The position numbers were made by a program, and so were the translations under genes. Below the pieces are notes generated by a model, which was not told where the DNA came from, did no database searches, and worked only from the letters and a program-made list of their open reading frames with translations. Shown here piece after piece: positions 29,212-32,696 of a DNA stretch of 58,932 bases. The DNA lies in NCBI GenBank assembly GCA_021324615.1, contig JAJPIT010000092.1, positions 1-58,932 of the forward strand, read 5' to 3'. Numbering within the stretch: the first letter of the stretch is position 1; each line of letters opens with the position of its first letter. Source of the DNA: Terriglobia bacterium. GTDB taxonomy: Bacteria > Acidobacteriota > Terriglobia > Bryobacterales > Bryobacteraceae.

Positions 29212-30588
29212 ATGCTTCATCGTCTCCCGCTTACGGAAATGGTATCGCTGGTCCGGTCCGGCAGCGTGAAATCGATCGAACTGATCGAGGCTCAGTTGGA
29301 TCAGATCGAGCGCCGCAACCCGGTGCTGAACGCCTTCACGATGGTTTTCGCCGAGCAAGCACGCGCCGCCGCGCGCCGCGCCGATCAGGGACTCAAAACC
29401 GGCCTGCTGCACGGCGTCCCGGTGACGGTGAAGGACAGCTTCGACGTGGCCGGTTTCCCCACGCGATTAGGCAGCTACTTCGCTCCGGAGGTTCCTGCCG
29501 CCCGGGATTCGGCCGCGGTCGCGCGGCTGCGCCGGGCGGGCGCCATTGTTCTCGGAAAAACCAACGTTCCCGAATATATGGCCAGCTATGAGACGGATAA
29601 TTTTCTCACGGGCCGCACCAACAATCCGTGGGACATCGAGCGCACACCCGGCGGCTCGAGCGGAGGCGAAGCGGCGGCGATCGCCGGCGGCTGCTCGCCC
29701 GGCGGTGTGGGCAGCGACGGTGGAGGATCGATCCGCGTGCCGGCGCACTTCTGCGGCATCGCCGGGTTGAAACCCACGCCGGGCCGCATTTCCACCTTTG
29801 GGCACCGGTCCATGTTGACCCTGCCGGGCATCAGCGTGGCCGGTCCGATGGCGCGTTGGGTGAGTGATGTGCGGCTGCTGTTCGATGTGCTGGCCGGCTA
29901 TGATGACCGCGATCCGCTGTCGGCGCCGGTTCCGCCGCGGCCGCCGGTCGTCGCGGATCTGCGGATCGGCGTGTTGGAGCAGTTCTACGATGTGCCGGTT
30001 CAGCCGGCCGTGCGCAAAGCCGTGCGCGACGCCGCCCAGGCGCTGGCGCAGGCGGGTTTCACCGTGGAGCAGTTCCATCCGGAGGGAATCGAGCGCGCCC
30101 CGAATCTCTGGAACTTCTTCTTTTCCGAACTGCCGGCGCGGGCGGCAAAGGAGCGGATCGCCGGCCGCGAAGCCGAAGCCCACTGGACCTACACCGAAGG
30201 CCTGGCGGCGCAGCTCGATCGGCCGCCGGCGGCGGCCTGGCAGGTCATCGAAAACATCGCGGCCCGCGATGCCATGCGCTGCAAGCTGCTCGAACAGATG
30301 CGCCGCTATCAGGTGCTGTTGATGCCGGTGGCCGGGATCGCGGCATTCCGCCATCGCGAGCGCCGCTTTCCCACCGAAACAAGAACCATCGGACTGTTTC
30401 AGGCGATGATGCTCGCCACCTTGGCCAACATTCTGGGCCTGCCCGCGCTGGCCGTGCCGTTTTCCACGAGCGAGGAGGGTTTGCCGGTGGGAATCCAACT
30501 GCTCGGCCGGCCCTGGGACGACGAGGTGCTGCTGGAGATCGGCGTGAAGCTGGAAGAAGCCCGCGGAGCGTTTCGCTGGCCCGATTAG
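29212..30588 (+). CDS. Amidase-signature hydrolase
   Basis: The 458-residue enzyme hydrolyses an amide bond through the Ser-cisSer-Lys triad. All three residues are visible: K74 in VTVKDSFD, S149 in TPGGSSGG and the nucleophile S173 in DGGGSIRVP. The 24-residue step between the serines and the 75-residue step from Lys are as in characterised members. The core GLKPTPGRIS motif follows. It resembles aryl-acylamidases and amidases of small substrates more than GatA; no gatB or gatC is adjacent. It stands alone after the MoxR operon and is convergent with the mer-like operon. A TACACT hexamer (29138-29143) could be its -10 box. Confidence 0.92.
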   Translation: MLHRLPLTEMVSLVRSGSVKSIELIEAQLDQIERRNPVLNAFTMVFAEQARAAARRADQGLKTGLLHGVPVTVKDSFDVAGFPTRLGSYFAPEVPAARDSAAVARLRRAGAIVLGKTNVPEYMASYETDNFLTGRTNNPWDIERTPGGSSGGEAAAIAGGCSPGGVGSDGGGSIRVPAHFCGIAGLKPTPGRISTFGHRSMLTLPGISVAGPMARWVSDVRLLFDVLAGYDDRDPLSAPVPPRPPVVADLRIGVLEQFYDVPVQPAVRKAVRDAAQALAQAGFTVEQFHPEGIERAPNLWNFFFSELPARAAKERIAGREAEAHWTYTEGLAAQLDRPPAAAWQVIENIAARDAMRCKLLEQMRRYQVLLMPVAGIAAFRHRERRFPTETRTIGLFQAMMLATLANILGLPALAVPFSTSEEGLPVGIQLLGRPWDDEVLLEIGVKLEEARGAFRWPD

Positions 30589-30615: not shown

Positions 30616-31203
30616 TCACCAGCTTTTGGACAAGACCGCATCGAGGTCCGTTACGGTGTTCACCACTGGTCCATTCAGGAGCACCGGTTCCGGCAGAGTT
30701 TCGCCCCAGCGTGCTCCGGGCGCGTAGACGGCGGCCAAATCCCACAAGAAGCCCTTGCGTTCGCAGCAATCGGGGTGCAGGGCGCCGGAGACTTCCACCT
30801 TCTTCACGGCCGCCGCGATGAGATGGTTGGGATCCCAAAATTGCCGGACCCGGCGGTCGTCGAGGCGCCGGAGCGCCATCGTGTCCGGCGGACTCCAGTC
30901 GGTCGGGAGGATCGGCTCCCACACGGCGAGCACCTGCAAAGAGCTTTCCGGATGCTTGCGCAAAACTTCCTGGACTGCGGAGGCCCCCCGCAGGCAAGTG
31001 GGTCAGGTGGGCGACAGCAACAGCAGGATGCGCAAGCCCGATGACGGGCGATTGAATTCTCCCTGGAGCGCGGTAAGCGTCGGCCCGGCGATTTCAACCA
31101 ACGGAGGCTGGCCAGCCGGCGGACGGCCCGGCCTGGTGAGATAGAAAACGCCGCTTCCCACGGCAAGCGCCAGGGCGAGCCCGATTGGCCAGGTGTGCCT
31201 CAT
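30616..31203 (-). CDS. Thioredoxin-like selenoprotein (UGA = Sec at residue 67)
   Basis: The reading frame is open for 66 codons from the ATG at 31203, meets TGA at 31005-31003, and continues in the same frame for 128 codons to 30616. Read through, it gives 195 residues: a membrane anchor (about 5-23), then a thioredoxin fold. The strand RILLLLSPT is followed by U67-P-T-C70 and the helix LRGASAVQEVLRKH. The UGA therefore falls exactly on the first Cys of a CxxC redox motif. A GC-rich hairpin follows at SECIS distance. The second half is normal thioredoxin-like sequence (LQVLAVWEPILPTDW) with no decay. It is the last gene of the mer-like operon, 10 bases after merT. A nonsense mutation is the alternative, but position and hairpin favour selenocysteine. 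It would be anchored facing the periplasm. Confidence 0.75.
30975..31005 (-). promoter_or_regulatory. Sec UGA codon with putative bacterial SECIS hairpin
   Basis: On the minus strand UGA (31005-31003) is followed by 9 bases and then a perfect 6-bp stem CTGCGG/CCGCAG (30993-30975), extendable by a G-U pair. The loop starts with a run of G. The apical loop begins about 15 bases after UGA, near the short end of bacterial SECIS spacing. A conserved G early in the loop is the feature SelB recognises. The hairpin also codes for protein, as bacterial SECIS elements do. Confidence 0.65.
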
Positions 31204-31213
31204 GTGCGGGATC

Positions 31214-31534
31214 TCAACGCAGCGCTGCCATCAGCTCCGCCAAAGTCTGCGGAAAGAGCATCACTCCAAGCACGATCGCCGCCGACAGGGCGAACAAAAC
31301 CAGGCTCAGGCGGCTGCGGCGCCGGCAGTTCCTTCCACTCCGGTACATCTGAATGCCGCTTGTGGCGAGCAGAATCACAGCCAGGCCGATCAGCCAAGGA
31401 CGCAACGCTTCGAGCGCAACGCTCAATCCAAGCGCCCCCACAGCGCCGGCGATCCCAAAGGGCAAGCAACAGGCCAGCGTAGCGAGCGCGCTGATGGCCG
31501 CGGCAACCGGAGATAGTCGTTCGCTTAAACGCAC
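31214..31534 (-). CDS. merT: MerT-like mercuric ion membrane transporter
   Basis: The 106-residue membrane protein starts with GTG just 2 bases after the merP stop. Three hydrophobic segments are seen (about 10-40, 46-62 and 78-97). The first contains the vicinal Cys pair in ATLACCLPFG, which MerT uses to accept Hg(II) from MerP. A further Cys lies in the basic loop RSGRNCRRRSR. Length and topology fit the MerT family. A longer in-frame reading upstream of the GTG only mirrors the neighbouring genes. Transport of mercury or a similar soft metal into the cytoplasm is inferred from family and neighbours. Confidence 0.82.
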   Translation of the reverse strand: MRLSERLSPVAAAISALATLACCLPFGIAGAVGALGLSVALEALRPWLIGLAVILLATSGIQMYRSGRNCRRRSRLSLVLFALSAAIVLGVMLFPQTLAELMAALR

Positions 31535-31536
31535 GG

Positions 31537-31881
31537 TCAAATCACCTTGGTCTCTTTGACCTTGTACCCGCAGCGGGCGACGAATTTGGACAGGCTCTCC
31601 ACGCTCTGCCTGCCCGTATCGAAGGTTACCACAGCCTGGCCGGCCTGGTAATCGACACTCGCTTTCACGACGCCCGCCATGTTGCGGAAGGAGGCCTCCA
31701 GACCCTTCGCACAGGACGCGCAGGTCATGCCTGCGATGCGCATCTGCACGGTCTGTTGGCTCGCCTTGGCCGGGGCTGCGTTCTGCGGAGCCGTGCCGGC
31801 CGCCAGCCGCCAGCCGCCCGCCGGGATCGCGGCGAGCCCCACAGACACCAGAAGGACTCGCGCAAGACTGGTGATCTTCAT
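31537..31881 (-). CDS. merP: MerP-like periplasmic metal-binding protein
   Basis: The 114-residue product has a signal peptide (about 1-28) and one heavy-metal-associated domain. The metal site is G51-M-T-C54-A-S-C57, and the end of the domain has the typical CGYKVKETKVI. A GGAGA ribosome site precedes the chosen ATG; the open frame extends upstream but without a plausible leader. MerP scavenges Hg(II) in the periplasm and hands it to MerT, encoded next. An Ala/Gln-rich linker separates signal peptide and domain. Confidence 0.88.
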   Translation of the reverse strand: MKITSLARVLLVSVGLAAIPAGGWRLAAGTAPQNAAPAKASQQTVQMRIAGMTCASCAKGLEASFRNMAGVVKASVDYQAGQAVVTFDTGRQSVESLSKFVARCGYKVKETKVI

Positions 31882-31886
31882 GATCG

Positions 31887-32219
31887 CTATCTCCTTGTTG
31901 CTTCCCGCATCTTTGCTTCTCGAACCGCTGCTTGAATCCATTCCGGCGGCGGCACCCCAACGCGCCGGCCGCCAGTAAGGTATGTGCGGCACGACATGCC
32001 GAAGGATCGCTCCGAGCGCGCCGCAGGCTCCACGTCCTGCCCATCCACCCGAATGGTTGGGGACCCCAGAAAGCCGATCCGTTGCGCGGTGTCCGCATCG
32101 TTGACTTCGACTTCAACCATTTCGGCCTGCGCATTCTCTTGCGCCAGCACCCGGCGCACGCAATCGACAGCCGGCTCGTGGTTCGGGCAGCCGGGAAAAT
32201 ACAGAATCTCCACCTTCAT
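31887..32219 (-). CDS. Thioredoxin-like protein with CPNH motif
   Basis: The 110-residue cytoplasmic protein begins with a thioredoxin-type strand ILYFPGCPNHEP (C11) and has further cysteines at C20 and about C77. The FLGSPTIRVDGQDVEP segment is the cis-Pro loop and edge strand of the fold. Such proteins are common in mer-type operons and are sometimes labelled as organomercurial-lyase-like, but I see only a single-Cys thioredoxin-like site. The start overlaps the stop of merR by ATGA (32216-32219). It probably binds or transfers the metal or a thiol in the cytoplasm; this is inference. Confidence 0.82.
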   Translation of the reverse strand: MKVEILYFPGCPNHEPAVDCVRRVLAQENAQAEMVEVEVNDADTAQRIGFLGSPTIRVDGQDVEPAARSERSFGMSCRTYLTGGRRVGVPPPEWIQAAVREAKMREATRR

Positions 32220-32656
32220 ACGCTCTTCCTGGGCGGCCGAGTCATGCTAATTTTTTTCAGAACCGGGCAGCAATCGCGCTGCCGGGGGCGTTGGCGCAAC
32301 GCGGCGCCGCACTTCCGGTACGCCTTGGCCAGGTCCTGTTCGAGCTTTTGAAGCTCGGCGATCTTGGCCCGCACGACCTCGAGTTTTGCGGCGATCAGAT
32401 CACGGACGTGGGCGCAGGCCTCGTTGGGGTGACGTTGAATTGAGAACAACTCGCGGATTTCGTTGAGCGAAAACCCAAGCTGCTGCGATTTCTGGATAAA
32501 CTCCAGATCGGCGACTTCCCGCTCGTGATAAAGGCGGTAGCCGCCCTCTGATCGTGCCGGGCGCGGCAGCAGCCCCGACTTCTCGTAGAATCGGATGGCA
32601 TCGACGGTCAGGCCGGTCCTTTTCGCAACCTGGCCAATTTGCAGACATGCTCCCAT
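32216..32656 (-). CDS. merR: MerR-family metal-responsive regulator
   Basis: The 146-residue regulator has the MerR helix-turn-helix at the N-terminus (LQIGQVAKRTGLTVDAIRFY, residues about 5-24) and a long dimerisation helix. Metal-site cysteines fit the Hg(II)-MerR pattern: C81, C116 and C129/C130, compared with C82, C117 and C126 in MerR. It heads the operon and should both repress and activate its own promoter just upstream. The ATG at 32656 lies about where transcription would begin, so the message may be leaderless; a TTG three codons upstream is the alternative start. Confidence 0.9.
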   Translation of the reverse strand: MGACLQIGQVAKRTGLTVDAIRFYEKSGLLPRPARSEGGYRLYHEREVADLEFIQKSQQLGFSLNEIRELFSIQRHPNEACAHVRDLIAAKLEVVRAKIAELQKLEQDLAKAYRKCGAALRQRPRQRDCCPVLKKISMTRPPRKSV

Positions 32657-32664
32657 CACCCTCA

Positions 32665-32696
32665 AGCATACAGTCTGGACCTGACTCCAGGGTCAA
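32665..32696 (-). promoter_or_regulatory. MerR-type promoter/operator of the mer-like operon
   Basis: On the minus strand a perfect-looking -35 TTGACC (32696-32691) is separated by 20 bases from -10 TATGCT (32670-32665). The over-long spacer carries a dyad, CTGGA-N6-TCCAG, which is the MerR-family architecture in which the bound regulator twists the spacer to activate. Transcription would start at about 32658. Confidence 0.75.

Follow-up and report, generated by a model that had tools for sequence, protein, structure and literature searches.

A probable selenoprotein gene paired with a MerT-like gene in Acidobacteriota

Described selenoproteins and mer systems nearest to the locus

Table 1 of PMC13188914 covers 119 selenoprotein families, several of which are UxxC entries of the thioredoxin-like or thiol:disulfide-interchange kind, and the same source lists a mercuric transport protein containing selenocysteine (Sec), a UxxU metal-binding protein and the hypothetical protein DF, reported by deep-Sep (PMC12013277). 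Among the 119 tabulated families no entry matching the protein described here was seen; comparison by sequence covers only those entries that have a library model. Among the open-access papers listed for selenoproteins with mercury or mer genes, or in Acidobacteriota, no title concerns such a protein. The locus lies in a stretch of 58,932 nucleotides (the window) from the Terriglobia bacterium assembly GCA_021324615.1, contig JAJPIT010000092.1, and has the following features:

32665 to 32696, minus strand: MerR-type promoter, with TTGACC (32696-32691), 20 bases and TATGCT (32670-32665) around a dyad
32216 to 32656, minus strand: merR-type regulator, ATG start at 32656 (TTG at 32665 in the list of open reading frames), Pfam MerR families over cut-off
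31887 to 32219, minus strand: homologue of the DF family of (seleno)proteins, NCBIfam NF049942 with 120.5 bits against a cut-off of 70
31537 to 31881, minus strand: MerP-like protein with an HMA domain and GMTCASC, Pfam HMA 44.6 bits against a cut-off of 24.8
31214 to 31534, minus strand: MerT-like membrane protein with CC in its first hydrophobic segment, probable GTG start
30616 to 31203, minus strand: probable selenoprotein gene (sec), 195 residues and a terminal TGA, predicted N-terminal helix and thioredoxin fold
31003 to 31005, minus strand: probable Sec codon UGA, residue 67, UGA in 62 of 81 aligned rows
30994 to 30996, minus strand: Cys70, second residue of the UxxC pair, Cys in 61 of the 62 Sec rows and U in the other
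30975 to 30993, minus strand: SECIS-type hairpin, 8 pairs, loop GGC, 17 nt after the UGA

The operon reads merR-DF-merP-merT-sec, with all genes on the minus strand and sec last, which agrees with the earlier note on this DNA, where the gene was placed at the end of a mer-like operon behind merP and merT. The start of sec lies 10 bases past the stop of the merT-like gene, and the next long frame (29212-30588) is on the other strand. The window resembles the classical mer operon in its merR, merP and merT-like genes and its MerR-type promoter, but it has no merA in the operon, carries the DF and selenoprotein genes in addition, and misses the curated mer cut-offs: the regulator is matched best in NCBIfam by CadR-PbrR with 120.2 bits (cut-off 151.45) and reaches 106.4 bits against TIGR02051 (cut-off 150.85); the MerP-like protein scores 52.5 bits against TIGR02052 MerP (cut-off 92.55); and the MerT-like protein stays below cut-off both for PF02411 (18.3 bits against 32.9) and for NCBIfam merT_RC607 (E 8e-7). 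In the whole genome, the best match for MerA has 325.4 bits and is likewise below its cut-off of 454.45. A separate MerA-like flavoprotein match, L163 (G000:C9:1410-2792; 290.7 bits, below cut-off), has one TGA inside. A promoter with such an overlong spacer is typical for metal switches of the MerR family, and a similar element was recognised by eye in 18 of the 19 stretches upstream of relatives' merR genes, the exception being L150. The cysteine pattern of the window regulator may point to a divalent soft metal, and the best match, CadR-PbrR, which falls below its cut-off, does not fix which one.

The reported Sec-containing mer-type proteins and DF, as they are listed in PMC13188914 and reported in PMC12013277, also place selenium in metal-type clusters, and a DF protein is encoded in the window operon; however, the Sec of the window would sit in a separate thioredoxin-fold protein, whereas DF, MerP and MerT have no in-frame TGA. 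With the UxxC thioredoxin-like and thiol:disulfide-interchange selenoproteins, as tabulated in PMC13188914, the protein has in common the (predicted) fold, the UxxC pair, the existence of Cys counterparts and a bSECIS hairpin, but it differs from those entries in belonging to a family without a Pfam or NCBIfam model, in its pairing with merT, and in a conserved SPTUxxC motif accompanied by W95-E96 and W123-D124.

The in-frame UGA and the hairpin behind it

The sec frame runs from 31203 to 30616, with an ATG start, 66 codons ahead of the TGA at codon 67, 128 sense codons behind it and a terminal TGA; the plus strand of the same stretch does not encode the selenoprotein. Codon 67 is the sole break in the 195-codon frame and forms the first residue of U-P-T-C (SPT-U-PTC), right after RILLLLSPT. 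The earlier observation, given without a strand, of a frame open on both sides of one TGA, with 128 codons beyond it and the TGA at the first Cys position of a CxxC motif, is thus borne out on the minus strand, Cys70 being the other member of the pair.

A search among 200 genomes from the window's bacterial family found matches in 51 of them, at 53 places, of which 39 have one TGA in the match and 14 have none. A profile search across 396 phylum genomes likewise found 53 places, spread over 47 genomes; here 40 matches contain a single TGA, 2 contain two and 11 are free of TGA. The alignment consists of the window and 40 of the 52 non-window places from each search, that is, 81 rows, all from Acidobacteriota, and comprises 61 rows with U-x-x-C, 1 with U-x-x-U (L160), 10 with C-x-x-C, 8 with neither, and 1 truncated by a contig end. 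The Cys homologues that had been expected from family logic are found in the 10 rows with Cys at exactly the column of residue 67, all of them in the wider phylum set, and all 62 aligned Sec rows continue past the UGA. Behind the UGA, dN/dS is 0.15 to 0.46 against six relatives; the protein there is under purifying selection, in keeping with its earlier description as undecayed.

The eight rows without Sec or Cys (L079, L080, L082, L084, L087, L088, L089 and L090, reading SPTR, SPTD or SPTT) belong to the window's own bacterial family; the hairpin is also lost in them, and in one the gene lies behind a penicillin amidase gene. The two-TGA relative L160:4135-4536 (minus strand) has a counterpart in G312, likewise with two TGAs. 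G102, a place outside the alignment, matches residues 50-83 only and may be a fragment.

The RNA behind the UGA was compared with the published bSECIS limits, which PMC13188914 in its part on these elements gives as a stem of 4-16 bp, a loop of 3-9 nt with an early G, a spacing of 16-37 nt and an energy of -7.5 kcal/mol or lower. The window hairpin, CUGCGGGG-GGC-CUCCGCAG, has an energy of -11.5 kcal/mol (-12.5 for 36 nt) and lies within the limits set out there; when a longer stretch of the window is folded, a different structure results. When pairs are counted over the 32 Sec rows from the bacterial family, 247 of the 256 pair cells are intact; 500 synonymous recodings averaged 151.5 and never exceeded 171, and a second run of 300 recodings averaged 155.7 with a maximum of 176. 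In the same rows the Gly codon at +6 is GGG in 31 of 32, even though these genes use GGC most often for Gly; at codon +9, 24 rows have GCA, 6 have GCG, 2 have GTA and none has GCC. The equivalent stretch in the 8 rows without Sec or Cys forms only 2 to 5 of the 8 pairs; among the family Sec rows, L091 does not form this specific hairpin (2 of 8 pairs). Perfect-stem hairpins that fall inside the published limits occur in 29 of the 32 family rows (mean 5.7, maximum 13 in 100 recodings) and in 23 of the 30 wider Sec rows (mean 2.7, maximum 6), while the specific hairpin is complete in just 9 of those 30. Folding energy behind the UGA gave no signal against synonymous recodings (mean z -0.15) or dinucleotide shuffles (z -0.10). 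The pairing counts indicate that an RNA hairpin behind the UGA is kept beyond what synonymous recoding would leave.

The genome is also equipped for selenocysteine: a profile search found selA (488.6 bits), selB (350.4) and selD (375.4), all above curated cut-offs, and selC is represented by a tRNA-Sec with anticodon tca, so that all four genes for which the earlier note had proposed a search are present. The tRNA-Sec RNA family also matches control genomes; the anticodon is what counts. A selB match of E 1e-40 or better occurs in 37 of 37 family genomes with a TGA-bearing homologue and in 142 of 163 others, a co-occurrence that lends weak support to the Sec reading against a high background. 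The selD match of the genome, L019 (G000:C113:38808-39713), itself runs through one in-frame TGA.

That the TGA is a nonsense mutation or an assembly error, or that UGA is generally read as another residue in this organism, would have to contend with a UGA kept in 62 rows, with the purifying selection behind it, and with merT and sec themselves ending in TGA beside a tRNA-Sec, and the probability of this account is close to nil. The earlier preference for Sec insertion over a nonsense mutation is strengthened by the UGA column of 62 in 81 rows, the selection and the kept hairpin; on sequence evidence, sec almost certainly encodes a selenoprotein.

As for its distribution, none of the 11 other same-genus genomes among the 200 family genomes searched has a sec homologue, and sec may reflect either recent gain or patchy loss in the genus. 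A tree built from 80 rows requires, on its well supported branches, no fewer than 3 changes for the Cys rows and no fewer than 3 for the merT-linked Sec rows, counts that exclude 28 rows in no group; it follows that Sec/Cys exchange and merT linkage were each gained or lost repeatedly. Beyond the phylum, the search comprised one contig scan, which finds close relatives only, together with plasmid and viral collections; no relatives were found in the plasmid collection with two query proteins or in the viral contigs.

Predicted fold and family

AlphaFold2 on 33 rows gave a model with pLDDT 89.9, in which helix 5-23 precedes strand 58-63 and helix 68-83, and this strand and helix put Sec67 at the usual thioredoxin active-site place. 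The protein is therefore predicted to consist of an N-terminal helix anchor and a thioredoxin fold in which Sec67 and Cys70 mark where the active-site helix begins. The thioredoxin domain most likely faces the periplasm, as judged from the anchor and from 1 of 33 members matching the Pfam lipoprotein attachment site. In Foldseek the model matches thioredoxin-like oxidoreductases, the best being 2b5x (E 4.5e-4, TM-score 0.47 by query length), followed by 1lu4, with DsbF, DsbE and ResA among the further matches and GPX and deiodinase structures lower down. The predicted fold and anchor are thus like those of the extracytoplasmic thioredoxins of the TlpA/ResA/DsbE type, but the structural match is weak, there is no sequence match, and Sec stands in place of Cys.

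Sequence libraries gave little for this protein. Pfam has no match for it at E 1; the single NCBIfam match, at E 0.15, falls well short of its cut-off; searches of both libraries with 33 members found no family common to more than 2 of them; and the PDB gave no convincing relative by sequence and no sequence for the profile. As far as these profile searches tell, the family is listed in neither Pfam nor NCBIfam. The locus would then add a selenoprotein family, present in many Acidobacteriota genomes, that has no model in two current curated libraries, and gene finders may cut its members at the UGA, no library model existing.

A kinship with deiodinases was considered and rejected: the motifs resemble those of bacterial deiodinase-like proteins by eye, but the profile comparison is not significant (hhalign probability 1.6%, E 0.032), and PF00837 is not among the matches up to E 1, nor up to E 10 for the relative L017. 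The same resemblance and the GPX and deiodinase structures lower in the Foldseek matches are what would suggest reduction of peroxide, a deiodinase-like reaction or reduction of some other small molecule, with merT a bystander; set against the failed profile comparison and a merT-like gene beside 30 of the 32 family Sec rows, this is improbable. Deiodinase-like PF00837 proteins occur in their own right in 24 of 247 Acidobacteriota genomes (L170-L189), many with one in-frame TGA.

Pairing with merT and possible function

What the protein does is best indicated by its link to merT. In the window and in 29 of the 31 other family Sec loci, the gene immediately upstream on the same strand is merT-like, with 30 bases or fewer between the matched stretches, or an overlap; the two loci without such a gene are L061 and L091. 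merT adjoins none of the 8 rows without Sec and Cys. In the wider phylum it is found within 2 kb on the same strand in 4 of 30 Sec rows and 4 of 10 Cys rows, which implies that the chemistry, and the protein family with it, can do without MerT. A Pfam scan of 20 genes neighbouring relatives, mostly outside the bacterial family, turned up largely unrelated genes and no single partner outside merT settings. Every one of the 30 directly paired MerT rows (29 and L122) retains the CC pair, and in 21 of them the matched stretch contains a single additional Cys; wider MerT rows not directly paired have two or three further Cys in 10 of 10. Around the 29 merT-linked relatives, the DF gene is present in 12 and absent in 17, merR is present in 10 with none found nearby in 19, and merP lies on the same strand in 3, with that of L068 on the other strand. 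These neighbours were identified by iterated profiles seeded with the window's own proteins, which can overlook distant forms, and some contigs end close by. The idea that sec always belongs to a metal-regulated operon was rejected on the 19 of 29 without a merR found.

On the preferred reading, sec would be co-expressed with the MerT-like membrane protein, in the window under a MerR-type switch, and its product would be an anchored thioredoxin domain with Sec67 and Cys70, most likely facing the periplasm. The selenol/thiol pair would exchange electrons with the CC pair in the first membrane segment of MerT and keep these cysteines reduced; the CxxC of MerP, where MerP is present, would likewise be kept reduced. 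Reduced MerT and MerP cysteines could then carry soft metal, and the selenoprotein would do TlpA-like work with selenium. We judge it close to an even question, leaning slightly against, that the protein acts as a selenol/thiol oxidoreductase (reductase) on the MerT/MerP cysteines; the best explanation as a whole, a selenoprotein with an anchored fold that reduces MerT/MerP thiols for soft-metal carriage, is put at evenly balanced. The soft-metal role of sec stays an inference: the operon has no merA, the genome has no MerA over cut-off, the mer-type neighbours stay below the curated mer cut-offs, and many merT-linked relatives have no DF gene or no merR found nearby.

Selenolates bind soft metals tightly, and such very tight binding might also trap the metal. 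The chief rival builds on the former property: the exposed Sec-Cys pair would itself bind soft metal and pass it to the CC of MerT, replacing MerP. This would fit the pairing of merT and sec where same-strand merP accompanies only 3 of the 29 merT-linked relatives and the window, as well as the MerR-type promoter. It fits less well with a fold that matches oxidoreductases and with the absence of merT from most wider-phylum rows, for which no metal role is suggested, and we regard it as rather unlikely. A relay in which electrons would travel outward by way of the cytoplasmic thioredoxin-like DF, MerT and the anchored selenoprotein, much as in DsbD/CcdA systems, with MerT no metal carrier here, appears quite improbable: a DF gene beside 12 of 29 merT-linked relatives, CC in 30 of 30 directly paired MerT rows and the 19 of 29 without a merR found would speak for it, but 17 of 29 lack DF, a MerR-type promoter is present in the window and in several relatives, and MerT is not known to have an electron-carrier relative.

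A more general proposal, also doubtful, is that MerT and the UxxC selenoprotein form a self-standing two-gene module, in which the anchored selenol thioredoxin replaces MerP and works on the vicinal cysteines of MerT, either to pass a soft metal to them or to send electrons through MerT, and in some genomes DF would be the partner on the cytoplasmic side. Through the merT-sec pairing, MerT-type transporters gain a new likely partner, and the role of selenium in metal gene clusters becomes testable, as a metal ligand or as a reductant of metal-binding thiols.

In-frame TGAs were also seen in other genes of such surroundings. At L147:1632-1937 (minus strand), a DF-family protein has an in-frame TGA where most relatives have Cys (FGURIY), and this mer-type cluster likely encodes two selenoproteins in one operon, DF and a TGA-bearing relative of sec. 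At L075:15450-15665 (minus strand), about 6 kb from the selenoprotein gene, a MerP-like HMA stretch has a TGA for the first Cys of its CxxC (GMDUGIC).
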